Part shown: piece by piece, positions 34,975 to 56,869 of the stretch
How the letters are laid out: every line of letters starts with the position of its first letter
Position numbering within the stretch: the stretch's first letter is position 1
Origin: Eudromia elegans
Taxonomy: Eukaryota; Chordata; Aves; Tinamiformes; Tinamidae
Reading direction: 5' to 3'
DNA: 64,000 nt
NCBI GenBank assembly: GCA_003342815.1
Contig: PTEX01000293.1
Coordinates: forward strand, 510,172 to 574,171
The notes under the pieces: generated by a model
What the model was told of the DNA's origin: nothing
The model's input: only the letters and a program-made list of their open reading frames with translations
The model's database searches: none
Made by a program: the position numbers and the translations under genes

Positions 34975-35366
34975 GTTATTTCCAGGATTTGCTGAACAAA
35001 TCAGAAAAGGCCCTTTATGAGGCTTTCCCAACCATGTATGGGGAACTGTACATGCAAAACATGAAGGTCTTCAAGGATTTGTACAGTGAGCTACGCCGCT
35101 ATTACCGGGGCTCCAACATCAACTTGGAAGAGGCCCTCAACGAGTTCTGGACGCGCTTGCTGGAGCGGCTCTTCAAGCTGATGAATCCCCAGTACCACAT
35201 CACGGATGAGTACCTGGACTGCATGGTGAAGCACGCGGAGCAGCACAAACCCTTTGGGGAGGTCCCCAGGGACCTGAAGGTGAAGGCCACCCGAGCCTTC
35301 ATTGCAGCGCGCTCCTACGCCCAGGGCTTTCTCGTGGGCAGCGACGTGGTCAGAAAAGTCTCTCAG
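34975..35366 (+). CDS. GPC1: GPC1 exon 3
   Basis: 392 bases, preceded by a long CT tract and CAG and followed by GTAGGT. It starts in phase 1 (two bases finish a codon) and ends in phase 0 at ..VRKVSQ. It encodes about 130 residues of the helical core, including [18 protein letters not shown] and [16 protein letters not shown]. Human GPC1 has LYSELRLYYRGANLHLEE at the matching place. Confidence 0.97.
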
Positions 35367-38300
35367 GTAGGTCCATGTTCTTCTATTTTTTCACCCGCAA
35401 ATTAGCAGGAGTCAGTGAGCTACTTTTGGCTGGGAGAAGTGGGAATTTTATTTGCCTTAGGTTTTCATCGTGAGGCAAGGAGGTGTTTTTCAGCCCGCTT
35501 GAGGGTCGGCCATCAGTGAAGAGCCAGCCAGGGCTGTTGCAAACACGGAGAGTGCAGCAGACGTGAGCTATAGTCCACCACAAATCAGACCTATCCTCAT
35601 TTTACCCAGGGTGGCAGAGTGCCAAGGAGACGTCAGTCCCCCAGCCCGCAGAGCCACCTTGTCACTCGCCCGGGTTGGCAGCACTTTGGCAGCAGGGAGG
35701 GCGACGTGGCTCCAGTCCCACCCGCTGCTTTCCCTGCGTGGTGGTGCTGCAGGGTATGGGTCCCATCTGGGGCCAGGACCACCTGCAACAAGATGCACTT
35801 GGGCAACTGGCAAAGGGACTGCTCTGTCCTGTGTCACTCATGCCCACGTGGGGTACAGGCTTTAGGATGCGTCTACCCAGGATCCGTGGCAGTTGAGCGC
35901 AGCATTTTGAGAGGTTTTCAGTAAAAACTCCTTGTCGTGTCCAGGTATGAGTTCTTCTCATGCGTCCTGATGAGAAGTTCATCTCAAAACGGGCCGTTTG
36001 TTCCCTTCCTTCACACCTCTTGCTGACCTAACAGATGTTGTGCTAACTGTGGAGAAGCCACCCCGAGTTGCAGCCTTCTTGAGCACTCGCCGAGCCCTTC
36101 CTTTAGTCTGAGCGAGAGCCACAACCGGTGCTTTGATTTTTGTCATTTCCAGGTTGCTTTGTATTTATGACATTAGGAGAAAGCTTGTAATGTTTTGCTA
36201 AGATCAGAGGCTGAGCCTAAGTGCTCCTGTCATTCTTTAAAACTAACTCTTGGAGGTGAACGTCTCACGGACCGGTGCTGGATATTTTGGTGTGGAAATT
36301 TGGGGGAAAGCTGCTAGAGTGGACCAGGGGAAATAAGTTACCAGGCTTGGGGCTCTGAAGTAGTAATGGTGTTTTGAAACTGAACACGTTGCATTTTCTT
36401 TATTCATTATGAGATTTTCACTAAATAATGTTTTGTTTTAATAAGCAAAATTGCCTATCAAATCACTTTTATTTAAGTCCTACTGTGGCTTACCATACAT
36501 GTCGGGTCTTATTTTTTAAAACTTTCATGTCATCAGATGGTAAATGGCAACTTTATTATTTATCATAGGACTAATTTTCAAACCCATGGTGCATCAAGCT
36601 ACATTTGGATGGAAATCTAATGAAAAAGGCATCAAAATGGGATTTTAAAATATATTTATTAGTGAAATGAGCATGCTGGATACATACGGGACATAATATT
36701 TCTCTAAGCATGCTTTACATTTCCAGCAAGTTGATGATTAGACAAAGACTGCTCACTCACTGCGCTCTCCCGGCCACGCTTTGGAAGGAAGATGCAAGGG
36801 AGGTTGTTCCTGAGGAGGCCTCTGTCCCCATCTCTCCTTCCCTTTTCCTCTGGTCTCTAAGAGCCACGACAGGGTTCTGCCATAGCCCCAGGTTGCGTGT
36901 CTCTGCTCCCCCTTGGTCCTCCTTCTGGACAAGGGAATATGCTAGATCCTATTCAAGATTAAGGGAGGTTTGGGGTTATTCCAGGAGGAATTGCAGCTCT
37001 TTTCCACCTGTTGTGACTTTCACCAGCCCTTCTTCTGACAAAAGCTCTACAAATCAATGGATGCTGTTTGGAAAATGGAAATATTACCTGGGTGGGCAAT
37101 TCAGGAGGAGAAAGAAGTGAATGGTGAGGTTGAGAGTAGAGGGTCCTGTGGGTCTGTAAAGTGTCCTGGTGATATTTATGAGTGCAGGTACGTGCGCAAA
37201 GGTTGAGCTTGTAATTGAACTTGGATTAAACACATAAATCAAAAGTTGGAGTTGTTCTTTGAAGGCCCACAAGAAGGGTCTATTTTTCCTGCTGTATTTG
37301 AGAAAGATCTAGCTCGTTTTTCTCCCGAGCCCTGCTGCACTGCGGTGTGCGTGTCCTACAGAGACTGAAACCCTGTGCACGCCAAGAGCCGTCTGCACTC
37401 GGGGGTATTCTGTACACTCAGTGTCAGTTCAATAGCACCCGGCCTGTTTGATTAGTTAATTGCTTCTCCCATTCTACAAGAGTCTCCCCTCCCGAGTCTC
37501 TGCTTTATGAAGTTTATAACCTCTATTAAGTTGTGGTCTAGGTAATACTGAGGGTAACTTAGGTCTCCTGGAGCTTGTTTCAGTGCTGAAAGACCGAGCA
37601 GGTGACTGTTTTCTTTGGGACTTCTGCGTTTCTGAGAGTCTGTGCTTTGATGAACTCCCCGGCAGGAGCGTTTTGGCCAGAAGTCTTCCAGGCTGAGTGT
37701 TTGCTAACTCTTGAGGTGGAGAGAAACCAAGTTCAAGTCCAATCCCGCAGAGCTTCCACTTGGCGAATCACTTGTGAGAATTATTAATTTTACTGTAATT
37801 TAAGCATTGCTCAGGAGGAGGACAAATGAGGGAAAGGAATGCTGCTTTCAGTGCTGGCAGTTACGATGTGCTCTCTGTTTTCTGGCATATCATCTCTGCG
37901 TGTGCCCGGGCTCCGCCGGCCATTGGGTGCGTGCGGTGAGGAATCCCATAGTGAGCCCCAGTGCCGCGTCCCCTTGTGTATCCTGTAGCTCTAACAGGAG
38001 CCTTGCAAGGCCCAAAGCTCTGCCGCTGTCCTAGACACAAGAGACACGGCAAAGGTTTCTGCTGTGGCGCGTGCCTCCAGCCCTCCGCACCTGGTCAGGT
38101 GGCCCCGTCAGCCACGCTCAGGCACATCAGGCCTTGGAAGGGAGCCATGGAAAAACACAGAGCGCGGCGCTCGAGTCGAGCCGTGCGTGCAGGCCCATGC
38201 CTGATGACAACCTCCTTGAAGGGTCGGCGCTTTTGGTGCAACGAGGCTCTTTATGAGGCTGCCACCTGTTCCGCTGCATTAGCTCATTGCCTCTCAAATC

Positions 38301-41300
38301 AACTTCTCTATCCTCAGCTGTAAAGCAGTTTTAATTAAAGTGATTTATTGTTCCATACCACTTGGTTTCCTACTTGGGGATTTTTTTTTTCCAAAGATAT
38401 ATTTATTTTTTCCTTATCATTCCATCACCGGATGCGCACTTCACAGGACTCTTCCCACTGATGTCACTGGGACCAGAATAGGGTATGTAGATTTTAACTG
38501 AACAATGTCATAGAAACGATGTATTTATAAGTTGAGCTTTGCTTTCTTTGGCATATTTATTGTCTCTAATAACTAAACGAGGAGTGCCCTGGCTCCAAGC
38601 CATATCTCTCAGCAATAACTTCAGATCCTTGAGAAATATCTTTTGCAAAGTATTGTGCATTTCCTGTGGACATCTCAGTGTAGTTTCTAGGTCATAAAAC
38701 TAAGAAAGGACCATAGCTGTTTCTGAAGCTAAAGGAAAGCTGTCACAGCGGGGAGAATTAAGGTCATTATGGAATCTGTATAGCTGGAAGTCACATCTAA
38801 GTCAAGCTCTAATACTTATACACCGAGATGTGGAAAGTTATTTGTAAACATGTTGGCCTGAAACGCAAGCAGGTCAAATCCTGGTCCGCTGCTGAGACTT
38901 TGGCAGTCCTGAGGGCAGAACTGTGAAGATGAACGATGAAAATAACGGCACCATAAAGCCGAGACGATTGCCCAGGGCCTTACTGCTGGCTTGCCATGGA
39001 AGAAGGTGGCTGACTTTATTTCCATGTACCTTTTGTTTGCACACGCTGTGTGTTTTAGCAGATTATTAAGCAGGGTTTTTAATTAGTGATGCTCCCCCAG
39101 GGAACTGTGCAGCCCCCGCCACCCTTGGACCCCCAGCCCCACCAGCAAGGAGCCCAGTGGGGCACCCCACGGCCAGGGAGCTGCAGGGAGCTGCTCTGCG
39201 CTCACATCAGGGTGGCACTCTTGGCTTTCCTGGTGCTATTAAGTGATGTTAGCAAACACTTCTGAGTCCGAGGGACTCGCGCTTCCCTGCAGAGCCTCCA
39301 AAGCCTGAGCTACGGTGACAGTGGCACCAGCAGGAGAGCAGTGGGCACTCTCAGCAGCCTGCGTTTTAGCACCAACCGGGCCAGATTGACGGTACTTAGA
39401 GGCATCACTTACCGTCATGTAGGGTCTTCAAGCTGTACCAGCTGATATAGAGAGGAGCGAGGGATGCTAGCTGCACTTCCTGGGCAGGGGCGTGCGTGCC
39501 TCTGCTTTGGGGCCACCTGCCCCGGGCAGAGCACATGGCGTATTGATCAGTCCTGCGAGCGTCAGCTGGGCAGCCCGAGGGGCTTTCCATGAGGTTTGGG
39601 TTGGCGTCCGCCAGCCCCGGAGCGGGAGGTGACTCAGAACATTGTGGAGCCTTTTCCAGGCTGGAGGGTAAAGGCAGATACGAAATGTCTTCATTTGCAG
39701 GTTGGGGGGAGTCGGTCTCCCCTTTACCAGCCTGGAGAAACTGCTTTGCACTCGTAGCAGGAACGTGTGGCCGGGAGAGAGAGGAGGGATCCTGCTGGTG
39801 ATTCCCAGTGAGGCTTCTCAGTGGTTTAACCAGCCCTAGGAGCACAAGGTGTTTGGTGGGGCTGGGAGAGGCAGGTGTTCTGGTTTTGCTGTCATTGTTT
39901 TGATTTTCCTGTTTATTTGAGATTTTAATGCTCAGGACTTTTTCGGTTCCTAGTTCCTAGCTCCTGATAACAGCAAAGGGGCAAAGATCAAAGAAGCCCT
40001 TGGTCCTACGGAAAGGAGGGGCTTGATGTTTCAGCTCTTCTAGGGCATATTGACTGAGCTGTCAGTGCTTTGGTAGCAGCGGCGAAGCAAAAGAAACAGC
40101 CACGCTTCTGCAGAGAGGTGCCCGTCAGGGCAGGGGGACCTCTTGGCCATGTCCTTAGAGAGAGCCAACAAGCTCTGGAGCCAACAAGAGCTTCCAAGCC
40201 AACAAGCGTGTCCACCTGCGGCCTCCCCAGAGGAAGCATCTCCACAAGATCCTGTCATCCATGTCTCAAAAATCCTGGCTAATCTAGAAAAAGGGATTTT
40301 TCCCCTTCAAAAGTGTGTGTTGGGAGGTCAGCCATAGATACCCTGTTCCAAAATAGCACTGGTAGTTTTAGCTGCCTTGCATTTAGTGCATCTCTGTGGC
40401 CTGCCCACAGCAAGGAAGGAGTGTGGACATAGGAGATTGGAATAATTCCTTGGAGAAATGATTGAGCCCAGCCTTTTCCATGAGCCAAAACCGAATGCTT
40501 CTCCTCTCTGCCAGGAGATTAAGTTGAGCACCTGGCGCCTGCCCGGCTCAGCGGAGCAGCAGTTGGTGGACGACCGTGTCACCTGCTCCTCTCCACAGGA
40601 GAGGCCCCGGGGAAGGGGCAGGAGCTGCAGCCGGGAGCCTCGTCCCCACGCCGCCTGTTCTGCCGTGCGCTGACAACCCCCTTCCTGAAGCTGTGTTTGT
40701 GCACAGGCGAAGGGAGCTCTAGGGTGGGCCCGGGAGTGGGGCCTGGGTCCTCTCCTTGTGGAGCTCCGAAAGGCTGCCCGGTGTGGCCGCAGTTATCCGA
40801 GGCACGGGTGTGCGCGGGAGCGGATGCTGCCGTGCAAAGCCCCAGGGTCCTGCTGCGTGATTCGCGGTGCAGCGGCCGCCCGGGTGCTCGGGAGCTCCGC
40901 TTTGCATGGTGCGAGTCTGCGTCGCGCCGAGGTTACGGCCGGGCGATCCAAGCCGACTGTGCACGGGAGCGCCCCTGGAGCGCGGAGACAGAGGGGGCGG
41001 CTTGGGGACCTTCCTGCTTACGTGGGCTGCGTTCTCTGGCTGCGCTCTGGCTGTACAGCCTGCCTTGGTGAACTGTATGCGCAGGGCTAGCAGGAGCTCC
41101 TTTCTCAGTCCCATCTCCTGTTCCGTACACCAGATCATCTGGTTCCAGGAGGTCCTCAGCTAGCAAGCCTCCTAGTACGCAGCACAGTCCTAACTGTTGT
41201 CTTTTCAGTTGCTATTTAATCCTGGTTGACTAAACCCAGAGAAGAATCATGGGCTGGTGGTGGTTGTGTTTCACAGGGCTTGGCCGCAGTCCCTCCGGGA

Positions 41301-44300
41301 TCGCAGAGGTGCGAGCCAGTGGTCGCATCCTCAGCTGCCTCTCGCAGGGCCGCGTCTCGGTGCCCTTCGGTGGGACGCGTCCTCCATCTCCTGGTGGCAG
41401 CGCTGCACTGCAGCCTGCGGAGCACCCCGACACCGAGCAGGCTCCCCAAGGGGAGCGCAAAGCTGCCCGTGCCTGTGGTCCTCTGCAAGGTGCAGCCCTC
41501 AGGTGAATGTTCCCGGGTTGGACTCACGCTCGGGACTCCCCAGTGCAGAGTCTTGCCCCTTGAGCACTTCTCTTTAGGGGCTTCTTGTGCGGACTGAGAA
41601 CTCGGCACCAAGGAACTTGCCTGCAGACTCTCAGGTTTAGTTTTGTGAATAAGCACACAGGCACGCAGCTTTCTGGGCCATACATGGGCACTAACACTGT
41701 GGACCGGGTTAGTTTAGTCCAAGGTGGCAGGGCTGCCGGCAGCATCACGTATGTGGAGCACTGGGTACACGTGCAACGCATGAGCACCATGGGCGTTGCA
41801 CTGAGGGGTATGCTGGCCTGCTGCCGGGGGCTCCTCCAACACTGTCGAGCAGTCCCTTCCCAGCACTGGGGGCTCTAAACTGCCCACTTGAAAAGAAAAA
41901 TGTTCAGGTCTTTCCCCACGCTGGCGTCCTCTGCAGAGATGCCAGCTGGGAACTTGTCCGGTTCAGGCTCCCTGTCGTGCCTGCAGCCGGGAAGCTGCAG
42001 GTGAGTTTGTGAGAGGAACCTGCGCGCGGTGCAGCAAACCCTGCCTGCCAAACGGCTCGGGCGGAGGGCTGCGGATTGCCGAGGCTCCCGGGCGTAAACC
42101 CAGCACGTGGGCGGGTCACCAAAGCGCAGCGTGTTGGCACAGCCTAGGCAGTCGCGCGGGAGGACACGAAGGCTCCGCTGGCGAAGGGGTGGGCACAAGG
42201 CCACAGGGTTAAGCTCACTGCAAGTTTGTTACCTGTCTCTGGACCCCCAAGAAGTTATCAGAAGTTTGATGTTGCAGCGGGGGTGCTCTGCCTGGGAACA
42301 GCTTTTCTTGTGGTGCGCTTGGCTGGTGAGTCCCTTGGTGGGTCACCAAGTAGCCGTGCCAAGCCCCACTGCTTGAGCCACGGTGATGGAGACTCTTCGT
42401 GCAGACCTTGCTTTGGTGCTGTCCTTGTGCCACCTCCCTGAAGTGACAGAGGAGTGGCAGAGGGACATGCTCCAGGGCCTCTGCTCACATCCCGCTTGTC
42501 CTTGTCCCCATGGCAGAGGGACATGCTCCAGGGCCTCTGCTCACATCCCGCTTGTCCTTGTCCCCTCGATTCAAACCCAGGCAGAGGAAATGGCCCCTGT
42601 CGCAGAGGCCAGACCCCTCTAGTGGAGACGCCATCCAGGGGAAGGAGCAGCACAAGGAGGGCAAGCAGCTGGCCCAGAAGTCAGCTTGCAGCCCCGAGTC
42701 CTGCCCGGGGAAGCTTCGCCAGCCCCTGTTGCTAACTCCGTGTCTCTCTCCTAGGTCTCGCTCAGCCATGAGTGCACTCGTGCCGTCATGAAGCTCACGT
42801 ACTGTCCCCACTGCCGGGGCATGTCCAGCGTGAAGCCATGCAACAACTACTGCCTCAACGTTGTGAAGGGCTGCCTGGCCAACCAGGCGGACTTGAACAC
42901 CGAGTGGAAATACCTGATGGGTAAGGTGGTTGTACTGTCCACTCGCAGCACCTTTTGGACCCCCCTGAGGCAGTGTTTGGAGAGTGAAGGTCTTCCAGGA
43001 CAGTTGTGTTTGGGGACTTTATAGCTCACCTCCTCTTCCTCTAATTCCATAGTAATCCTATTCCTTAATGCCAACACACAGTTTTTCTCCATATGGACAG
43101 GCCACAGGAACGTGGAGCGCCTCTGTTCCAGATAAAGATTGGCCACCACTGCACCCTGCCAGGGGCCTAGCCCTGCTGGGAGGTTTTTGGTGTGCCCTAG
43201 GGGACACTGACCACGCTGGAGCAGCTGGGGTCACACACAACTGAGTGCCAAGTCCCTAAATCCTCACATGGGTTACGTGTGGCCTGGCCTCTAAGCTGCT
43301 GAGCACTAAAAGCAGAAGTGGTCAGGAACTGAGTCCAAAGCTCCTCAGGGATAGACAGCAACTCAGCAGTGGCTTCCAGAACTATAATTTTCAGCTTATG
43401 AACTCAGACTCCGTAAAAATCCCATTTCAGATGCCTCAGCCAGTTGTGGCTCTGCTCTAAGATCCTATTCCAAATTTTGTTGGACACTGTCAGTGGCATT
43501 TCCCAGTGCCCTGAGCCAGTGGGCAACTAGCCTCAAGCCCAAGTGGAGTGCAGGAAAATATGGGGTGTAGGCAGGGTTGGTTCCTCCTTGCGAGCTGGAA
43601 GCTCCACGCCAGCAAGAGGGGAGCACTGCCCAGAGTCAGCCCTTAGACAGTAGGGCTTTCTGTAGCACCCCAGAACCTTGCGGTCCTGTTGTGTGAATAC
43701 AGGAGGTGACCTCTGTTCCTCTGCCGTTGCAACCATCCCGGCGTGGTGAATTTTGGATGCTGTCCTGTTCCAAAGAGAAATGAACGTGTGCTTGGTAGCA
43801 AGTGGGAATGGAGAGGGCTCTTTCTAAAGCCAGCCTGCTCAGGGGCCAAAGCTGATCCCAGTAGGCGTGGGGCGTGCTCTGACTCTGCTTCGCACGGCGC
43901 CTGCTGAAAGGGGGTCTCTGTGCTTGTCCTGCTAGATTCTCTGATCGTGGTCGCTGACCGGATTGATGGGCCGTACAACGTAGACGCTGTAATAGGAACT
44001 ATTCACATGAGGATTTCTGAAGCTATTTCAAACTTGCAAGAAAACAAAGACTCAATCACAGCCAAGGTAAGAGCGGGTGCCTAGCCCTGACCGGCTCTGC
44101 AGCGTGTGGAGTTGCCAGGGCTAATGTTTTTCTGCTCACCAGTCACCTGAATTAAGGGAGATGAAAGAAGGGAGATGAAAGGCCTAGTCTTCTAATGATG
44201 AGCAACCCTCTGTCCTATATAGAGGAAAACCTTCTCCAGCGTTTTCAAGTGTTCCTGCCAGTCACATCAGGCAGCCTCCTTTAGGTGCAGGCATGCAGGA

Positions 44301-46366
44301 TGGAAACCTGGTGCCATTTGCTCTTGGGAGTCTGTGTCTGAGGAGCTCCGAAGCATTTCCACTGAGCTGAGGCTTTTGCAGGAAGGGCCTGGCCCTTTTC
44401 AGAGGCAGGACCCACCACTGCAGCACGCCTCGGGGATGTTCTGCAGCGGGAATGGTGCTCCCTACCTTCAGCGCCCACACCTCTGGTGCAGGGAAAGTCC
44501 CCAGCTCCCGTCTTGTTCTTTGAAGACCTCTCAGGATTTGTTTTGAGTGCAGGAACAGCTAAACTTACTAGAAATAATTTAATAGCAACAGCAGTGATTC
44601 ATCCAAAAGCATGTGCTAGTTCTGTGCTTGTGCTGAATGTTTGGCCTGAGAGTAGTAGCCAAGAGTAGTTCCCGTCTGCTTGAAAATAAATCGTGGCACA
44701 TGAGTAATCTGACCAAAAACTAAGCCCGAGTCTCAGAGATCTGGTAAGTAGGAAATATTAATAAATAAATACAAATGAAAACATAACCACAAAGTGATAA
44801 TAATTAAGAAACGAGTATCAAACCACAAGGACAGAGTTTGGTTTGTTTTCCAGGTTTTCCAAGGCTGTGGAAATCCCAAAATCAACACGAAAGGCTCCAG
44901 TAGTGACGATAAGAAGAGGCGGGGTAAAGTCACGTTAGAAGCAAAATCATCTGCGCAAGCGCTGGAGTTGCTGGTGAGTTTGTCCTCGAAGCTCCTTTCC
45001 CGCTGGCGTCGCAGATGTGCCGGGGGGCTGGCTCTGCAGGGAGGCAGGAGCGCCGAGGGCCACCCTGAGGCTGGCCAGCCCCGTGGAGTTAAGTTCCTAG
45101 GGTTTGCTGCTCACGTAGGACCAGCCCGTTATGGACCCTTTGGATTCCATGGGCAAGGGGCTTCATAACCCCCACATTTCTCCTCAGTCTTGAACATCTG
45201 CCGTGAACCCCGGCAGAGTCCTGGGCTGAGGGCTGGTCCATAGGGTGACGTTAGTGGCACTCCCCTGGCTACAGAAAAGCAGGTTGTGTGACAGTGTAGG
45301 AAAAAAGAGGCCTAAATCCCTGTCCTTTCCCCAGGACTGTCTCCGCGGAGCTCTGCGGGCCCTGAGCACCCTCTTTCTCCACAGGTTTTAGATGCCAAAG
45401 GGAACCTGACGAATCTCAAGTCTTACTGGGTCACCCTGCCCAACGTGCTGTGCAGCAAGAAGGTGACGGCCGGCTCAGGAGCAGACGACAAGTGCTGGAA
45501 CGGGATGACCAAGGGCAGGTATGTGGAGGGGGCCAGGGACCCTCAGCCTCTGCTTAGCCCCTCCCTCCTGCCACCTGCTGGGACAGAGCGGCGAGGTGAA
45601 ATCCAGGCCGGTGCCGTGACCAGCTCTCAGCCTCCTGAGCTTGGGAGTCCAGCAGAGCTGTGTCCAGACCCCGGGGAAGGTGCATGGCCCGTGTAGCCAA
45701 CATACAGCGACCTGCAGCTCCTCCGTGCTCCCAAATGAACGGGTTATTGCTGGCACCTCCAAAAGGGAGAAGCGCCTTTATGTTGGGGGAGGCACCAAAG
45801 CGTGTGTCCTTCCCTCGTAGTTACCTGCCCGAGGTGATGGGGGACGGCCTGGCCAACCAGATCAACAACCCGGAGGTGGAGGTGGACATCACCAAGCCGG
45901 ACATGACCATTCGCCAGCAGATCATGCAGCTCAAGATCATGACGAACCGCCTGGGCAACGCCAACATTGGCAACGACGTGGACTTCCAGGACGCGAGTGA
46001 GTGCGGGGAGCGGAGAGGGCACCGCGGGCGGGCGAGGGTGGCCCGCAGAGTCCCCACGGGGCCGTGGCAGAGGGGCTGGAGCTGCCCCAGCGCCATACGG
46101 GGTCTCCCACGCGTGTCTGTCTCACGTGCGCCCTGTCCCCGCGCGCAGGTGACGACACGAGTGGCTCCGGCAGCGGTGACGCCTGTCCTGACGATGTCTG
46201 TGGCAAAAGACTCGCTAAGAGCCCCGGCACGAGGCCGCCCGAGACGCACGCCATCCCCAAGCAGTCAGGACACGGCGTCAGCGGGGCCAGCAGCAGATCG
46301 TCGCCTTCCGCCTTCCTCATCCTCCTCTCGGTGGCTCTCCTGGCCACGCAGCACTTGTGGCGGTAA
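34975..46366 (+). CDS. GPC1: Glypican-1, exons 3-9 (3' part of gene)
   Basis: Glypican-1 is a GPI-anchored heparan sulfate proteoglycan that modulates FGF, Wnt, Hedgehog and BMP ligands at the cell surface. Seven exons join in frame: 34975-35366, 42755-42920, 43936-44066, 44854-44973, 45385-45518, 45821-45996 and 46149-46366. The joined frame has no internal stop. The visible protein shows the glypican alpha-helical core, its conserved cysteines ([30 protein letters not shown]) and the run [20 protein letters not shown], which from memory is identical in human GPC1. An acidic [10 protein letters not shown] heparan sulfate attachment cluster follows, then a hydrophobic C-terminus typical of a GPI signal. 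GPC1 fits better than GPC2, 4 or 6 because of the [17 protein letters not shown] and VDFQDASDD runs. The signal peptide and N-terminal cysteines lie in exons upstream of the window. The gene looks intact. Confidence 0.97.
40550..41480. promoter_or_regulatory. CpG-rich domain in GPC1 intron 3
   Basis: About 900 bases have clearly raised GC and many CpG steps (for example 40,780-41,000 and 41,290-41,420), with AT-richer sequence on the 5' side. It may be an intragenic CpG island. No transcript structure can be read from the sequence, so the regulatory label is inference. Confidence 0.35.
42455..42565. repeat. 56-base tandem duplication, two near-identical copies
   Basis: The unit beginning TGGCAGAGGGACATGC at 42,455 is repeated from 42,511. 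The copies match along their whole length apart from the last base. Such identity points to a recent duplication or a two-copy VNTR allele. It lies in intron 3 and does not touch exon 4. Confidence 0.95.
42755..42920 (+). CDS. GPC1: GPC1 exon 4
   Basis: 166 bases between CTCCTAG and GTAAGG, starting in phase 0 and ending one base into an Asp codon. It encodes the cysteine-rich turn of the glypican core with [18 protein letters not shown] and [19 protein letters not shown]. These cysteines form conserved disulfides in the family. Confidence 0.97.
42921..43935 (+). other. GPC1: GPC1 intron 4
   Basis: 1,015 bases, GTAAGG donor and GCTAG acceptor. No feature beyond the splice sites was recognised. 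Confidence 0.9.
43936..44066 (+). CDS. GPC1: GPC1 exon 5
   Basis: 131 bases between GCTAG and GTAAGA. The first two bases complete the Asp codon split with exon 4. It encodes [18 protein letters not shown].. to ..[11 protein letters not shown], matching the human segment that ends LQDNRDTLTAK. Confidence 0.96.
44067..44853 (+). other. GPC1: GPC1 intron 5
   Basis: 787 bases, GTAAGA donor and TTTTCCAG acceptor. It becomes A-rich near its 3' end. Nothing else was seen. Confidence 0.9.
44854..44973 (+). CDS. GPC1: GPC1 exon 6
   Basis: 120 bases, phase 0 on both sides, between TTTTCCAG and GTGAGT. It encodes [19 protein letters not shown] and the basic KKRRGK run; human GPC1 has VIQGCGNPK and EKRRRGK. 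This region carries the site of family endoproteolytic or basic-loop variation. Confidence 0.96.
44974..45384 (+). other. GPC1: GPC1 intron 6
   Basis: 411 bases, GTGAGT donor and CCACAG acceptor. Nothing else was recognised. Confidence 0.9.
45385..45518 (+). CDS. GPC1: GPC1 exon 7
   Basis: 134 bases between CCACAG and GTATGT. It encodes [19 protein letters not shown], then NVLCSKK and [11 protein letters not shown], and ends two bases (AG) into the next codon. Confidence 0.96.
45519..45820 (+). other. GPC1: GPC1 intron 7
   Basis: 302 bases, GTATGT donor and CTCGTAG acceptor. A 353-codon open frame that begins here merely runs through exon 8 and then leaves the real frame. Confidence 0.9.
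45821..45996 (+). CDS. GPC1: GPC1 exon 8
   Basis: 176 bases between CTCGTAG and GTGAGT. It carries the most conserved part of the protein, [18 protein letters not shown] through [19 protein letters not shown]. The split codon at its 5' end reads AG+T (Ser), where human has Arg before YLPEV. Confidence 0.97.
46149..46366 (+). CDS. GPC1: GPC1 exon 9 coding part with HS attachment and GPI signal
   Basis: 218 coding bases after GCGCGCAG, ending in TAA. It begins by completing Ser, then [10 protein letters not shown], the acidic Ser-Gly cluster that receives heparan sulfate chains. A polar linker follows, then a C-terminal hydrophobic run ([14 protein letters not shown]) ending HLWR, typical of a GPI transamidase signal. 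The cleavage site is probably in the small-residue stretch GASSRSS just before it. Confidence 0.97.
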
Positions 46367-49164: not shown

Positions 49165-51112
49165 GGCCCTCGGGCGGCCTCCCCAGGCCAAAGAACACAC
49201 TGCACTGGATGGCCCCTGGGGCTTTCATGCAGCCTCCTCAGACCACCTTGCACACTCGGCCAGGTAGGGCCTCGGGGATTTTATATGGCCTCCCCAGGCC
49301 TCTGTGCGCGCTGCGACGGGGAGCCCTTAGGACCTTTCGTGCGGCCTCCCCAGGCCTCCGTGCCTATTTGGCCTTTGGGGACTGTACTAGGATTAGTGCG
49401 GCCTCACTGGCCCCCTGCATGCACAGGACACAAGGGGCACTAGGGGCTTTCATGCAGCTTCCCCAGACCTCCATATGCACCTGGCCACGGGGCCGCTCCT
49501 GTGGCCTCCATGGTACCCCTTGTGCACTAGGGGACCCGAGGGACACTAGAGGCTTTCGTGCAGCCTCCTCAGACCTCCATATGCACCTGGCCGCAGGGGC
49601 TCTCGTGTGACCTCCCTGGTCCCCCTAGTGCACTGGGCCGGTGGGGCACTAGGGGCTTTCGTGCAGCCTCCCCAGGACTCTGGGGGCAGTGGGATGAAGG
49701 GGCCCTAGGGACTTTTGTGCAACCTCCCCGGGCCTCCATGAGCACATGGCCTGGGGTCTGTATGAGTATTAGTGCAGCCTCTCTGTGCACAGGACCGAGT
49801 GGGCCCTAGGGGCTTTGGTGCAGCTTCACCGTGCCTCTGTGTGCAATGGCTGCAGGGGCCCTAGGGCCTTCTTCTGGCCTCCCTGCACGCTGCACCATTG
49901 TGGCCAATTGGGCTTTGGTGGAGCCTTCATGTGCAACGGGCTGCGCAGGCCCCAGGATCTTTCATGTGGCCTCCTTGAGCACTTGGTCCTGGGGACTGTA
50001 TGAGAGTTAATGTGGCCTCCCTGGGCCTCTCTGTGCATGGATCTGGGGAGTGGGGGGACCCTAGGCGCTTTACTGTGTCCTCCCCTGGCCTCTGTGTGCA
50101 CTGCACTGGCAGGGGGAGGAAGAAACCTATGAGTTCCTGTGCGGCCTCCCCAGACCTCAGTGCCCAATGGGCCAGGAGTGCCCCATGAGCTTTCGTGTGG
50201 CCTTCACAGACCTCCGTCCGCACTGAGCCACCCCCAGGGACTTTCATGCGGCCTACCAGGGTCTCTGTGCGTATGGGGCCAGGCCTCCCTGCATATTGGG
50301 CCACACGGGCCCTTGGGGCATTCGTGCGGCCTCCATGGGCCTCTCCACTCACTGGCCCAGGGAGATCCTAGAGGCATCTGTGCCGAATCCCCAGGCCTCC
50401 GTGTGCACTGGTCCATGGGGGCCCTAGCAGCTATTGGGCCGCCTCCCCAGGTCACCCTGCACACTGGGCCATGAGGGCCCTTTGGGCTTTCATGTGGCCT
50501 CTACGGACTTCCATGCACAATGGGTCATGTGGACCCTAGGGACTTTCATGCAGCCTCCTCAGGCCTCCATGTGCACTGTGTCAGGGAGACCATAGGACCT
50601 TTGATGTGGCCTTCCTGGGCCTTGATACACACTGGGGCTGGCGGGGCCCTACGGGCTTTCGTGCAGTCTTCCCAGTCCTCCTTGTGCTCTGGGCCATTGG
50701 AGCCTTAAAGGTTTCATGCAGCTTCTCTGGGCCTTCATGTGCACTCCGCTGTCGTGGCCATAGGGGCCATGGTGTGGCCTCCCCCAGCCTCCGTGCACAC
50801 AGCTCCAGGTGGTGTAGGCCTGGGAGCTTTCATGCATTTTTTCCCTTTTCCTCTGCGTACACGGCACCAGAGGGCCTTTCATGTGGCCTCCCCACGCCTC
50901 AGCCTGAACCCTGAACAGGGGAGGCCATAGGGACTGTGGTGGCATCTCCCTGGGACTCTGTGCCCATTTAGCCTTGGGGAGGCTGTATGAGTGTTAGTGG
51001 GGCCTCTCTGTGCATGGGACCAGGGGAGCATTAGGGTCTCTTGTGCAGCCTCCCTGGGCCTCTGTGCACACTGAGCCAGTGGGGCCGTAGGGGCTCTAGT
51101 GCGTCCTCCCCA
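49165..51112. repeat. Degenerate ~56-base minisatellite array, about 2 kb
   Basis: An anchor like GGGGCTTTCGTGCAGCCTCC, followed by a CCAGGCCTCCGTGTGCAC-like word and GGGCCCTA, recurs across the whole interval. Spacing between successive anchors is mostly 56-58 bases, with shorter units of 44-51. That gives roughly 35 copies that have diverged from one another. A variant unit with CTGTATGAGTATTAGTG-like sequence recurs near 49,381, 49,757, 49,996 and 50,981, so units have been amplified in groups. Open frames up to 181 codons arise from the repeat and are not taken as genes. The 3' end runs into a CR1 fragment. Confidence 0.9.
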
Positions 51113-51242: not shown

Positions 51243-51908
51243 ATTCACCAGTTGCTGGACTCTTCCCGGTGCCTGCCCCTGGTTCTCCCTCTCTGAGTTG
51301 CAGATGCTCCTCAGCTTTTCAACCTCTCCCTTTAGCCCAACTCCAGTGCTGGACACATCTGCCTCCTGCGCCCACCTCACGCAGTCCCATTTCCCCCGGC
51401 TGTCCATAGGAAGCGTCAGGCTGTGGCACCACATGCAGCCCGACACGGCTGCACGTTTCACTGGTGCCTCAGTCTGGGTGCCTGTCTCCCGTTTAGCGAG
51501 CACTGACAGGACCCTAGGACGAGCAACTGCCATGGTGGGGACTGCGGGGAGCGCGTGGCTGCCGCTCTGCCCGCGCTGCCCGGGGGTGGGGTGGCTCTTG
51601 TGGGCACCGCCAGGCGCCTGTGAGCTCACAGAAGGGCCCTGCGCTGCCCTGTGCCGGGCAGTCGAGCGACGTGGCTGCGTTTCGCACGGCATCGCTCCAG
51701 GAGGCTGCACAGAGCTGGGCTGCAGTGCTGCCCTGTGCCGAGCTGCCCCCGCGGACCTTGTGCTGCCCCCACGGGCCTCGTGCTGCTGACCGCATCGTGT
51801 TGGGCTGCTCCGGCGCCGCGAGGCCCCGTGCTGTGCCCGGTGCAGCCCAGCACCGCGCTCCTGCTCCCCAGCAGGACCCGCCGCGCGCGACTGCAGCTCC
51901 ACGGCGTC
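51243..51908 (+). promoter_or_regulatory. GC-rich upstream region of the unrecognised membrane-protein gene
   Basis: GC content and CpG rise steadily towards the ATG at 51,909, strongest from about 51,640. No TATA box was seen, which fits a TATA-less GC-rich promoter and 5' UTR. A 267-codon minus-strand open frame here is probably a shadow of the composition. The promoter role is inferred from position only. Confidence 0.4.
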
Positions 51909-52029
51909 ATGGGCAGCATGGCGGGAGCGCGGGGCACTCCTGGGCACCGACTGCTGCTGCTCCTCGGCCTCCTGGCCACCCTATGTGCTCGTGACACCCA
52001 CGCGGCTCCATGGGCAGCACCAGCACCAG
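51909..52029 (+). CDS. Exon 1, signal peptide of unrecognised membrane protein
   Basis: 121 bases. ATG at 51,909 has G at -3 and +4; the in-frame ATG at 51,918 has A at -3 and G at +4. It ends one base into a codon before a GTGGGG donor; this donor is chosen because only phase 1 keeps exon 2 open in the matching frame. It encodes the signal peptide and APWAAPAP. Confidence 0.65.
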
Positions 52030-54246
52030 GTGGGGCTGGGACAGTGGTGAGGACCAGCGTGGCCACAGGCACCTCCTGGGCTGCAGGACAGAGGCAGTGG
52101 GGCCGGGGCGGTTCCCTGTGGCTCATGCGGCCGTGGGCAGGGAGACAGAAAGAGACCAAACATGGGATGGGTGGGATGAGGTCGGCTGCAAGGAGTGGGG
52201 GGGTGAGAGATGTGCCTGGAGCAGTGCTGGCGTTGCATGGCAGCACCTCTTGTCCCCACATGTGGATGCAGCGTTGCCTGCTGGTGACGGTGACTCTGCT
52301 CTGGATGCCAGCGCCGACCCACCCCTGCACCCTGGAGGTGAGTGCACCCTCCTGCAGAGCCCGCTAGCTGCCAGGAGCTCCTGCTGCTGCTGCTCTGCCC
52401 TGTGCTGCACGGGGGCTGCTGACATGACATCCTGTCTGCGTCTCGGCTTCCTCGCAGATTTTGTCTTTGTTGATTACCCGGCTGCTCAGGGGGACCGTGG
52501 AACAGAGTCTCTGGGTCTGCCCGAGGGTACGTAGTCGAGTTCTACTTCTCATAAGGAAGAAGAACTTTCTTTACGCTGTTTTGATCACATGAAATTATCC
52601 TTCAAACTCCCTCTTCAGGGGGCCCAGGGCTTTGGGGCAAGGGGGAGCCCCCAGGGGGGAGCTGTGAGGCAGTTCCTGATTTGGAGAGCTGCCTGTCGGG
52701 CGGAGGGCACAGATCCTCTCTGCCCCTCCACGGCTTTGGGATCTCTGACCTACATGTGTGTCCCATGTCATGATGTGACAAGTCTCTTCCATAGCAGTGT
52801 TTTACAGTGCACAATGAAGACCTGTCTGTGTTTGCTTGCAGATATTGCTACAGGCACCAACCAGCCCTCTTACCAGGCGGATCCCAAGGTTGAGCCTGAA
52901 GGGCCTGCCAGGAGTAAGTGCTGCAGACTCATTCACTTCCAGCAAGGAGCGTCTTCTCAGTGTTTGGGGCACAGGCCACGTAGCCCAAGTCCTTTTGCAA
53001 GGCTCACACATGCAGAAGAGCAGCACGGCCTTTGGGAGGGCTCCACAGATGTGCACAGGGCGGCTTCCCTGGCTCCTCCAGGCCTGACCTTCCTTCTGGG
53101 CCTGCAGCAAGGACAGCAGAGCTGTTGGCGCTGCAGTCTACAGCTTCTGTGCCCTCCAGAGTGCCCTGGGCCTTCAGGGCCTGGGCACATTTACACCCAG
53201 ATGGTGCCCATGTACCTGCCTGGGGAGTGTTTGCAAGACTCTTGGGAGAGCGAGGCTCCAGGAAGAGCCGGGGGTGATTCCCCATTGCCTTCACTACCAT
53301 TCAAACCTGAAGAAGCCAATGGAAATACTGAACAGGAGCCATTTTCATGTATTTGCTTATAGAAACATTTTTTCTCTTTTTCTTTTTTATTCTCTTTTTC
53401 TTTATCTTTTTCTTTTTCTTTTCGTTTTGTGGGGGTTTTGTTCCGTTTTGTTGTTTTCCTATTTGATGGCCCACTTGGTGATCCCAAAGTTCCCAGTTCA
53501 CACGTCCTCCCTCAAGCACTGAGGTACACTTAGGGGTAGTGATGGGTCAGCCTTTGAGGGACCTGTGTCTCTTGAGCATGACACCTGTAAAGGAAATTAA
53601 TTGTCCTCTGGTGCCAAGATGCTGGAATCTGTCATCAAAACACCGGGGAAGGTGAAATAGTTTGTGATTCCCAAACACCACGAGATTATCATCGGGACTG
53701 CATAACCCAGTGATGAATGGGGTTGTATCTTTTCCTCCAGGTCTTGGTAGTGGCAATAAAGAAGGGACTGCAGAGCACAAAGCTCTTCAAACCTACTATT
53801 TGATCTTCCCTGGGGCAGTCTCAGGCTCCATGCTCTTCGGGATAGTGATGGCCTGTATATGTATTTCTCGGATGGGAGAGAAGAAAGAGTAAGTTCGTTT
53901 CTTGGCAACATTCTTTAGTGTTCCTATCATACAGCAACCAAGCGTGCGCAGTGATAGCATTGGGGTGTGCCTGGTCTGCTGCTGGGAGTAACCTGTGGAG
54001 AGGTCTGCTCTGAGCTCTCCTACGTGGACTCTTCCCTGCCAGGGAGGACTCTTTCCCAAAAGCCATCATTGTTTTTGCAGAGAGGTGACGGCATCCAATG
54101 CTGCTGCTGCCTCCAGTGAGGAAGAGCCCGGAACAGAGGAAGGCAGAGAAAAAGCAGGTGGCCAAAAAAGAAAGGATGAGCTTGCTGTAGAACATGAGAA
54201 TGTCAGCAAGAGCTCCAGTCACCCTCCTGTGCCTCTTCCGAACTGA
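51909..54246 (+). CDS. Unrecognised small type I membrane protein (six exons)
   Basis: Six exons join in one frame: 51909-52029, 52272-52337, 52458-52526, 52842-52913, 53741-53888 and 54081-54246. They give about 213 residues. Residues 1-32 look like a signal peptide (hydrophobic core HRLLLLLGLLATL, then ARDTHA). Residues ~33-127 form a cysteine-free ectodomain rich in Pro, Ala, Gly, Asp and Glu without an N-glycosylation sequon. Residues ~128-152 are one membrane helix (YYLIFPGAVSGSMLFGIVM) with two Cys near its inner end, then RMGEKK as a stop-transfer. The tail is acidic and then basic (SSEEEPGTEEG, QKRKDEL) and ends PPVPLPN. Exons 2-4 are short and symmetric phase 1. The second in-frame ATG at 51,918 has an equally good context. 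I cannot name the family. The mini-exon, mucin-like layout recalls CD99-type proteins only loosely. Splice sites are all GT-AG. Confidence 0.72.
52272..52337 (+). CDS. Exon 2, 66-base phase-1 mini-exon
   Basis: Bounded by TGGATGCAG and GTGAGT. It encodes LPAGDGDSALDASADPP and LHPG after a split Ala codon. The following 120-base intron is a multiple of three and has no stop in frame. Confidence 0.65.
52458..52526 (+). CDS. Exon 3, 69-base phase-1 mini-exon
   Basis: Bounded by CTCGCAG and GTACGT. It encodes FVFVDYPAAQGDRGTESL and GLPE after a split Asp codon. Confidence 0.7.
52842..52913 (+). CDS. Exon 4, 72-base phase-1 mini-exon
   Basis: Bounded by GCTTGCAG and GTAAGT. It encodes IATGTNQPSYQADPKV and EPEGPAR after a split Asp codon. 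The same frame stays open well beyond both splice sites (52,589-53,362). Confidence 0.75.
53368..53430 (+). repeat. CTTTTT-rich pyrimidine tract
   Basis: An almost pure pyrimidine stretch of CTTTTT-like units inside intron 4 of the unrecognised gene, about 310 bases before exon 5. Confidence 0.85.
53741..53888 (+). CDS. Exon 5, transmembrane exon
   Basis: 148 bases between TTTCCTCCAG and GTAAGT. It encodes the juxtamembrane stretch (SGNKEGTAEHKALQT), the single membrane helix and the start of the cytoplasmic tail. The hydrophobic helix flanked by HK outside and RMGEKK inside is the strongest sign that this is a real coding exon. Confidence 0.8.
54081..54246 (+). CDS. Exon 6, cytoplasmic tail and stop
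   Basis: 166 bases after TTTTTGCAG, beginning by completing a Glu codon. It encodes the acidic and then basic tail and ends PLPN, TGA at 54,244. Human-style sorting or PDZ motifs were not recognised. Confidence 0.78.
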
Positions 54247-54251
54247 ATAAA
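54246..54251 (+). terminator. Polyadenylation signal overlapping the stop codon
   Basis: The sequence TGAATAAA makes the last base of the stop the first base of AATAAA. A T/GT-rich element (GGCTCTTTGTGCC) follows at about 54,292. The 3' UTR would then be only about 15-30 bases long. Confidence 0.75.
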
Positions 54252-55040
54252 TAGTATGTAGAACTAACCTGGTGCAAGGCTTTGGCTCTTCTGGCTCTTT
54301 GTGCCTGTATGCAATGCATAGAGGAGTGAGAGGAGCTGTGAGAGAGGTGCCCTTCATGGAGGGATGCCCTTTGTCTCATCATCAATGGAGTTTCACAGCC
54401 TAGGCTGTCGTGAAGACTTCATTCCTATAAATGGGGTGTGTAGATGAACTCACTGGGACAGCTCTACTGTGTGCTGTCATTGGAGAAAGGAGCTCTTGTC
54501 TGTCATTTTAGAAAGGAGCCCCATGTGGTACAAGTGACTCCCTGAGCTAAGGCACCATGTTCTCACATGGCAAGCAGACTGCGCGTAGGAAAAGAGCAAT
54601 CCTGACTTTCCTGTCCACAGCTGCTGCTTGAAAGCACTCAAATTCTAGGTTTACACTGGGTTTGGCTATGAGGAATATAGCTATCCTAGAAAGAAAAGGA
54701 CACATCTAGGGAGTTGACAAAGCCCCTGCAGCTGCTGCAGCACAGTCCACAAATGCCAGACCTACCAGAAGACCTGAAAAATGGAGGCAGCTCCTTCCTT
54801 TGGTTTCTTTCACACCCTTCACAAAGGTGGCCTTGCTCTGATGACCCGCCCTGCAAATACTCATTCCTGTGCTCTAAGGACATGTGCAGTTCAATACCTG
54901 ATGGCCAGCTCGCCAAGCCAGCAGTCGAATAAACCATGAGTGTCCTGCTCTTCAACAGAGACAGTGCGAGTGCCTTGTCAGCACTGCTGTTGTGCACCCC
55001 CCCAAGCTTGTTACACAGCCCCAAGAATTAAGGAAGAAGT
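54252..55040. other. Spacer upstream of CR1 element
   Basis: No gene, repeat or regulatory motif was recognised. Open frames of up to 112 codons lack domains. Confidence 0.6.
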
Positions 55041-55391
55041 AGGAGACTGAGAGGGGACCTGATTAATGTGTATAAATACCTCAAGATAGGGGGTGAGGAG
55101 CATGGGGCTGGCCTCTTCTCAGTGGTGGCCAGTGACAGAACTAGAGGAAATGGCCGCAAGTTGAGGCACCAAAAGTTCCACAGGAACTTGCAAAAGAACT
55201 TCTTAACAGTGAGGGTGACAGAGCACTGGAACAGGCTGCCCAGAGAGGTGGTGGAGTCTCCTTCTCTGGAGATCTTCAAAACCCGCCTGGACACCACCCT
55301 GTGCCACGTGCTCTGGGTGACCCTGCAGGGGGGTTGGACTAGATGACCTCTACAGGTCCCGTCTAACCTTAGACATTCTATGATTCTATGA
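55041..55391 (+). mobile_element. CR1 LINE 3' end, plus strand
   Basis: It encodes the C-terminal end of CR1 ORF2 without a stop for about 100 codons (RRLRGDLINVYKYLK, SDRTRGNGRKL, EHWNRLPREVVESPSLE). A short 3' UTR (GGGTTGGACTAGATGACC) and the diagnostic tail of repeated ATTCTATG follow. The 5' part is missing, as in nearly all CR1 copies. The open frame suggests it is younger than the minus-strand fragment at 51.1 kb. It lies about 440 bases upstream of the DUSP28 start codon. Confidence 0.95.
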
Positions 55392-55825
55392 GAATTCTTT
55401 ACACTACTCACAAGTGTAAGGAAAACCAAGCAAAAACCTTGTGTATTCAGCCCTCTCAACACAAATAGATGAGCAGTGGCCTCAGAAGCAAAGCTCTCGA
55501 GCCAGCCTAGGAGTTGCTGCTTGGGGATACAGTGAAAACACCGAGAGGGCGGCCCTCCAGAGTCAGTCCTGCAGCTCCATAGTTGTGCCAAACCCAGCCC
55601 AGCTGCACAGCACGTTTCTGCTTCACCATGCCACAAAGCAAAGGCCTCCAGAGCTGTCGGTCCTGAGGGAAACACCACGAGGCCTCACAAGTCAAGCCTG
55701 GGGCAGCACAGGGCCTCTCTGCCGTGCCTGGAGTGCCACACGGGGGCTCCCCGCGGCACCAGGACCTGCCGCCCGCCCCGCTGTGGTCACCAGAGCAGCG
55801 CGGCGGCGCTGGCACCCCCACAGCC
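55392..55825 (+). promoter_or_regulatory. DUSP28: DUSP28 5' flank and probable promoter
   Basis: The sequence becomes GC-rich from about 55,680 and no TATA box is evident. The promoter role is inferred from position, between the CR1 tail and the DUSP28 ATG. Confidence 0.4.
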
Positions 55826-56173
55826 ATGGCCCCGCTGTGCACGGTGGCCCCAGGGCTGCTGCTGGGCCCGGCACGGGCCGCGCTCGACGCGGCGCTGCTG
55901 CAGCGCGAGCGCGTCACCCTCTGCGTCAACGTGTCGCGGCAGCAGCCGTTCCCCACGCTGCAGCACGTCCGCTGCCTGCACGTGCCCATCCTGGACGACC
56001 CCGCCGAGGACCTGTACAGCTACTTGGAGCGCTGCGGCGAGGCCATCGAGGAGGCGCTGCGCGGGGGCGGCCGGTGCCTCGTGTACTGCAAGAACGGGCG
56101 CAGCCGCTCGGCCGCCGTGTGCACGGCCTTCCTCATGCGGCACCGGCACCTCTCGCTGCAGGAGGCCTTTGCG
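55826..56173 (+). CDS. DUSP28: DUSP28 exon 1
   Basis: 348 bases, 116 codons, very GC-rich, ending in phase 0 after LQEAFA before a GTACCT donor. It carries the complete catalytic loop. Confidence 0.93.
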
Positions 56174-56869
56174 GTACCTCATCCTGCTGGGGGGGAGACG
56201 TGCGGCGCCCGCCGCAAGCTGTGACTTGCTGGCAGATATTTAGCTATTTGAATCAAATCTTTGCACTCCCCCAACCCTGCTTGAACGAACATGCATTCCC
56301 AGCTACGTTTCCTGCACAAATGTGCTTTAAAATGCTAGTGGGCTTTAAGCACCGCGGCGAACTCTGCATGCGGAGCTGGCTGTTTGTGGGCACGCCCCGC
56401 TGGCACTGGATTATTGATAACGAGGGAAGTTGCAGTCAGAGACGTGCATCAGCTTAGTGAGAAAAAGCACGAGGCTCTTTTGCAGGCTTCCTTCCTTAAG
56501 CTGGCATATGCATTTCAGCTGTGTATAACAGCTTGATACAGCAAAAAACCAGCACCCCTGGGGGCTCCTGAGTGGCTTAAGGCTAACAGTAAATACCTCA
56601 GCACCACCAGCACAGCCAGTGCACACATATGATATATGTGCTTGCACGTGTGTATGTGTGCCTATATGTGTGTATGTCTTCTAAGGCCTTCTAGTCTAAG
56701 GCCAGTTTGCTCCATTCCCTGCACTATTTCTGCTACATCTCTCCTCTTCTTCCAGACCGTGAAGGCTGCCAGGCCCCAAGCAGAACCCAACACTGGATTT
56801 TGGGCTCAGCTGCAGCGGTATGAAGAAGATCTGCGGCTGCGAAGGCTGGCCACTGAGCAACAGACTTAA
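55826..56869 (+). CDS. DUSP28: Dual specificity phosphatase 28 (atypical DUSP)
   Basis: Two exons (55826-56173 and 56756-56869) give 153 residues. The protein is a cytoplasmic protein-tyrosine-phosphatase-fold enzyme of the atypical DUSP group. Residues ~30-37 read VTLCVNVS. Asp57/Asp58 in ILDDPAEDL are candidates for the general acid. The phosphate loop is VYCKNGRSRSAAV, with catalytic Cys88 and Arg94. As in human DUSP28 (from memory) the residue before the Cys is Tyr instead of the usual His, which may lower activity. The C-terminus (KAARPQAEPNTGFWAQLQ) matches human KSARPVAEPNPGFWSQLQ. It is shorter than the 176-residue human protein because the N-terminal and C-terminal tails are shorter. 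The start at 55,826 has CAGCC before ATGG and begins right at the family core. Confidence 0.95.
56174..56755 (+). other. DUSP28: DUSP28 intron 1
   Basis: 582 bases, GTACCT donor and TTCTTCCAG acceptor. It contains a TG/TATG-rich stretch at about 56,627-56,680. Nothing else was seen. Confidence 0.9.
56756..56869 (+). CDS. DUSP28: DUSP28 exon 2
   Basis: 114 bases after CTTCTTCCAG, phase 0, encoding TVKAARPQAEPNTGFWA and the final helix, ending in TAA. Confidence 0.94.
   Translation, partial: TVKAARPQAEPNTGFWAQLQRYEEDLRLRRLATEQQT

Follow-up and report, generated by a model that had tools for sequence, protein, structure and literature searches.

A compact type I membrane-protein gene between GPC1 and DUSP28 in Eudromia elegans, probably one member of a multi-copy modular family

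Introduction

Does the DNA between GPC1 and DUSP28 of Eudromia elegans hold a real gene and, if it does, what are its relatives and in what state is it? An earlier note, made from the letters of this DNA, had proposed a complete type I membrane-protein gene here. We followed up this proposal in a stretch of 64,000 nucleotides on contig C216 (hereinafter the window) and in the whole genome. The results favour a reading to which we assign a probability of about 0.8: the locus (the window gene) is a real, intact and compact member of a multi-copy, modular family of type I membrane proteins. An adhesion-type role is proposed only tentatively.

Results

The neighbourhood of the window gene is recognizable on both sides (Table 1). 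It fits a gene list for chicken chromosome 9, 2–3 Mb, which includes CLDN15, DUSP28 and GPC1 (PMC10976558). According to the earlier note, no such gene is known between GPC1 and DUSP28 at human 2q37.3. The mouse gene order listed in PMC3420870, Gpc1 - Ankmy1 - Dusp28, agrees with this in listing no gene of the window-gene type, though Ankmy1 occupies the interval there. Literature searches on the GPC1–DUSP28 neighbourhood, avian ones included, turned up no account of such a gene, which leaves room for unnamed predicted genes in databases. Degenerate G+C-rich tandem arrays with periods of about 106 and 56 bases lie between GPC1 and the window gene (49426-50571). Rfam, run on the whole window at gathering cut-offs, gave no match.

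Table 1. Positions of genes, exons and signals in the window
Feature	Position	Strand	Description
GPC1, upstream neighbour	34977..46363	+	7 matched blocks (tblastn; query human GPC1), 41-86% identity, reaching the C-terminal end
Candidate promoter	51501..52000	+	G+C-rich and CpG-rich, covers exon 1; GC 0.73, CpG observed/expected 0.71
Exon 1	51909..52029	+	start codon, signal peptide (about residues 1-32), leucine-rich core, ends in phase 1; matches exon 1 of C406 (55%), C357 and C455
Exon 2	52272..52337	+	weak acceptor; encodes an acidic part of the stalk, phase 1-1; 61% vs exon 2 of C406 and C621
Exon 3	52458..52526	+	stalk module, phase 1-1, with DFVFVDYPAAQ...; C357 exons 3a and 3b are relatives
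Possible relic exon, 39 nt, phase 1-1	52619..52657	+	placed by eye; acceptor kept, donor GT absent
Exon 4	52842..52913	+	phase 1-1 stalk module; matches C357 exon 8, both 72 nt
Exon 5	53741..53888	+	phase 1 to 2, 148 nt; encodes the membrane helix and the juxtamembrane stalk
Membrane helix	53800..53868	+	residues 130-152, LIFPGAVSGSMLFGIVMACICIS; GxxxG pattern G134-G138; from hydropathy
Exon 6	54081..54246	+	encodes the charged cytoplasmic tail, with the stop codon; C127, C406, C621, C357, C534 and C455 have related tails
AATAAA polyadenylation signal	54246..54251	+	overlaps the stop codon (by eye); C406 and C621 have the same layout at the corresponding position
DUSP28, downstream neighbour, first coding part	55826..56200	+	phmmer vs PDB: dual specificity phosphatase 28, E 1.1e-38
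Claudin gene	60044-63555	-	matched by a claudin-10 query

The window gene contains six exons (51909-54246) of 121, 66, 69, 72, 148 and 166 nt, with phases 0-1-1-1-1-2. All junctions are GT-AG, and the spliced product has 213 residues and one stop. The exons, reading frame, phases and product length described in the earlier note were all reproduced. Met4 (51918) may be an alternative translation start, because the C357 copy begins at the matching position (by eye). Splice sites were scored by splice-site frequencies. Among the 3572 GT sites scored in the window, four of the five donors fall into the best 1.6% and the remaining one into the best 2.8%. Among the 4748 scored AG sites, four of the five acceptors fall into the best 2.5%, and that of exon 2 only into the best 32%.

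On its own, the ab initio signal for the window gene is only moderate. Its crude exon-chain score, 17.8, was reached by none of 60 dinucleotide shuffles (best 16.8). Under the same scheme, another chain within the same 2.4 kb scored 31.5, and 3 of 42 segments tiled over both strands of the window scored 19.3–23.3, one of them overlapping the window gene. Because this chain and these segments outscore the model, splice signals alone would not decide whether the gene is real, and the same scores lend some weight to an alternative in which GT-AG sites of G+C-rich intergenic DNA form the chain by chance. The case for the gene lies instead in homologous copies that share its exon borders.

Searching the genome with the window protein gave 18 places: six in the window gene itself, two in C127, four in C406, three in C621, and one each in C357, C455 and C446. 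The relatives on other contigs match at the protein level exon by exon, with the order and borders of the window gene. Specifically, exons 5-6 match C127 at 62-67% (E 1.1e-10 and 1.7e-9) and C406 at 45-51% (C406 E values 2.6e-5 and 2.7e-5), and exons 1-3 match C406 at 55-61%. These matches contradict a chance chain, which is almost certainly wrong, and make a protein-coding origin of the window gene practically certain.

Searching with the C357 protein added C534, a 4.1-Mb contig with copies near 7, 28 and 61 kb and additional exons around 20 and 58-59 kb; at least three family copies lie clustered at C534:5808-62856, where the contig starts. Two of these copies are 84-92% identical to C357 over the last two exons. 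The most diverged copy is C455, which was weak in the window-protein search (E 2.8). It has an exon 1 match to C357 (E 2.4e-5 in a 15-kb search), a 148-nt membrane exon with the same phases, and a tail exon in order. Altogether there are at least nine related loci in the genome, on C127, C406, C621, C357, C534 (three), C455 and C216. The earlier note was right that the gene is real, but it had missed this family.

Several candidates were left out. C446, 24% identical in a frame interrupted by stops (E 6.9 genome-wide and 5e-4 in a small local search), was judged a chance match, as were the C291 and C18 rows of the genome searches. C213 and C438 also appeared in the C357-protein search and stand outside the nine-locus count. 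The genome search located the intron stretch 53149-53363 in two places only, with 81% identity to C127; it was rejected as an extra exon because its conservation does not exceed that of intron 5 in this pair (87%).

Members of the family share one exon architecture. In the window gene, a signal-peptide exon with a leucine-rich core ends in phase 1; a run of phase 1-1 stalk exons follows, some of them mutually related (exons 2-4 in the window gene, 2-11 in C357); and a membrane exon precedes a single tail exon, as elsewhere in the family. In six loci out of nine (C216, C357, the three of C534, and C455), the membrane exon runs from phase 1 to phase 2 over 148 nt; C406 and C621 have one of 127 nt and C127 one of 139 nt. 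Membership of the window gene in the C357/C216-type family is, in our judgement, very probable.

The C357 copy is intact, with 13 exons, 12 introns that are all GT-AG, 349 residues and one terminal stop. It has ten phase 1-1 exons in a row, of 39-84 nt, and 11 stalk or juxtamembrane exons vs four in the window gene. Because all stalk exons are of phase 1-1, gain, loss or skipping of an exon keeps the frame, and stalk length thus varies among copies. We compared 13 modules, ten of C357 and three of the window gene. In 17 of the 78 pairs, at most 2 of 200 shuffles scored as high (uncorrected for the number of pairs). C357 modules 3a and 3b agree at 56 of 69 nt, and the last 40 nt of intron before each of them at 32, which marks a tandem exon duplication. 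These similarities show that the stalk grew by duplication of symmetric phase 1-1 exons; the window gene, with three stalk modules, represents a short version of the family.

The state of the copies bears on whether the window gene still functions. C127 and C621 are broken. C621 has lost its start codon, has a changed exon 3 acceptor, carries the same TAA as C406 and has a stop in another exon. In C127, two exons carry gaps of 4 nt and 1 nt relative to the window gene; within 40 kb only its 3' part was found, and not the 5' half. C406 keeps its start and an eight-exon reading that is open through the membrane exon, with a TAA that truncates the tail; two codons contain a base read as N, and one exon was skipped in the reading because its donor is GA. 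The exons read in the C534 copies at 7 and 28 kb are open, and the 61-kb copy has a GC donor on its membrane exon.

This record lends some weight to the view that the window gene is a recently silenced duplicate, of functional ancestry but no longer expressed or needed and merely unbroken so far. The broken C127 and C621 copies and the shortened C406 tail fit this view, and so does a 39-nt stalk exon, present in C406, C621 and C357, that has apparently lost its donor in the window gene (by eye); the C406 peptide of this exon had no tblastn match in the window gene. Against it, the window gene has an undamaged frame, start and stop codon (ATG at the start), and each of its ten splice dinucleotides is intact, while its sister copies C127 and C621 are broken, which bears out the complete gene of the earlier note.

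Neutral-decay simulations (4000 runs each) assumed an intact ancestor and set the indel rate per substitution at 0.05 and 0.1 (observed, 0.051 and 0.074). At 0.075 substitutions per site on the branch of the window gene, half the C127 distance, the frame was kept in 0.6-4.1% of runs, and the frame together with the splice dinucleotides in 0.15-0.85%; at 0.15 substitutions per site, the frame was kept in at most 0.2%. Under this model, an intact frame would be unlikely after neutral decay. Exon indels (6, 3 and 21 nt) are all multiples of three, compared with 4 of 13 in introns (Fisher, 0.06).

Substitutions between the window gene and C406 are averaged over both branches. Over exons 1-3 and the membrane exon there are 47.8 changes per 99.0 synonymous sites and 62.2 per 273.0 non-synonymous sites (Fisher on rounded counts, 3e-6), and omega in the single exons is 0.26-0.40. 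In the tail, which is located mostly beyond the C406 stop, omega is 0.89 and there is no synonymous excess. For the same four exons dN is 0.24-0.29, next to Jukes-Cantor (JC) intron divergence of 0.31-0.39 and 3' flank divergence of 0.46. Because dN is not far below intron divergence, the constraint shows against synonymous sites more than against introns; this closeness again speaks for a silenced duplicate.

Comparisons with the C357 group give higher values. Against C357, omega is 0.78 for the membrane exon, 1.51 for exon 4 and 1.28 for the tail (overall 0.68). Among C357 and two C534 copies, it is 1.25, 4.1 and 0.73 on exons 11-13, from few changes (10, 14 and 10), and 0.21 for one pair on exons 9-10. 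As far as substitution patterns can tell, the window gene has long been coding and is fast-changing and weakly to moderately constrained, possibly with positive selection in places. The 'fast-evolving' of the earlier note is supported between copies inside this one genome. Weighing both sides, we consider it likely that the window gene is still functional and unlikely that it is a silenced duplicate.

The predicted protein consists of a signal peptide, a cysteine-free acidic stalk, a single membrane helix and a charged tail. Residues 33-126 contain no Cys, 15 D+E and 5 K+R. Among 19-residue stretches, those with the five highest hydropathy values begin at residues 130-134, and RMGEKK follows the helix. 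The layout is that given in the earlier note, namely signal peptide, cysteine-free acidic ectodomain, one helix with a basic stop-transfer, and charged tail. The tail is without tyrosine.

Profile and structure searches found no relative of the product, in line with the earlier description of the gene as unrecognised. Pfam gave no family for the window protein at E up to 10, NCBIfam gave a single row at 13.4 bits (cut-off 180), a chance match, and the PDB search gave nothing usable. The C357 protein had no match in Pfam or PDB and the C406 protein none in Pfam; the C455 fragment had one Pfam row below cut-off (LapA_dom, 14.4 bits vs 28).

Could the window gene be an orthologue of CD99, XG, CD99L2 or some other known type I protein of vertebrates that has evolved too fast for sequence searches to recognise it? 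CD99 is a type I protein with a cysteine-free acidic stalk encoded by short phase 1-1 exons, one helix and a short tail. The window gene shares with CD99, XG and CD99L2 (PF12301) the signal peptide, the cysteine-free acidic phase 1-1 stalk, a single helix with small residues and a short tail, a likeness of build and not of kinship. CD99 kinship, which the build had suggested, was dropped: there is no PF12301 match and no profile similarity, and the membrane exon ends in phase 2 in the window gene but in phase 1 in CD99L2 (by eye). Searching the whole genome with PF12301 gave five places, two above cut-off (C236 and C158) and three weaker (C158, C236 and C721; C721 was inspected and dropped). 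The genome thus holds its own CD99L2-family loci, none of them on C216. Alignment by hhalign of the membrane region with the genome's own CD99-type exons gave a probability of 0.4% over 5 aligned columns. With type I families beyond the CD99 group compared through Pfam only, we regard such an orthologue as quite improbable.

Two other known systems resemble the product in part. Syndecans have conserved cytoplasmic C1/C2 motifs and a C-terminal EFYA. The window protein is like them in its signal peptide, its cysteine-free acidic ectodomain and its helix followed by basic residues, and a glypican gene adjoins its own; it differs in having no Pfam match, a single SG in the stalk, and a tail in which the C1/C2 motifs were not found and which has no EFYA. 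Glycophorin A and other small sialomucins likewise have short ectodomain exons, a single helix and a GxxxG-type pattern. In contrast to these, the window protein has no Pfam match, and its stalk has S+T at 10 of 94 residues and no N-glycosylation motif. Mucin-type sialomucins have stalks that are rich in S/T and heavily O-glycosylated; with so few S+T, no such motif and one SG, the window protein may be a poor fit to this type.

Discussion

Taken together, the results favour an intact, compact family member over a silenced duplicate or a disguised orthologue. Its product would be translocated, its signal cleaved, and the mature protein displayed on the outside of the cell, where it would form a short and flexible acidic stalk that lacks disulphides and is anchored by one helix. 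The helices could pair through G134-G138, possibly forming a dimer, with the charged, tyrosine-free tail inside the cell. By analogy with CD99- or sialomucin-type stalk proteins, the stalk might modulate cell-cell contact; we put forward such an adhesion-type role (contact, adhesion or anti-adhesion) only tentatively.

The copies suggest a fast birth-and-death history. A wider reading, to which we give somewhat less than even odds, is that they form an unnamed family of the bird lineage (or of sauropsids) in which stalk length is set by gain and loss of symmetric exons of 39-84 nt and gene turnover is quick, the window gene being a dispersed, shortened and intact member. If this is true, quick turnover would fit a role under conflict, for example pathogen binding, gamete contact or leukocyte contact. 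If expressed, the window gene would add to the bird genome an unnamed multi-copy cell-surface family of the sort missed by family libraries and mammal-based annotation. With copies from intact to broken and module number varied, the family would be well suited to studies of how exon duplication, birth-and-death and selection act on surface proteins.

The surroundings of the copies were also inspected. Of ten chosen long frames in the flanks of the other copies, one only gave a match: some 5 kb away from the C406 copy lies an olfactory-receptor frame (C406:226334-227107; Pfam 7tm_1 and 7tm_4). On C127, a retrovirus-like remnant (C127:1052400-1053570, by eye) ends exactly where the family copy begins. 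Between the window gene and DUSP28 lies a CR1-like repeat (55035-55403, by eye), and similar DNA also occurs near the C127, C406, C621 and C357 copies.
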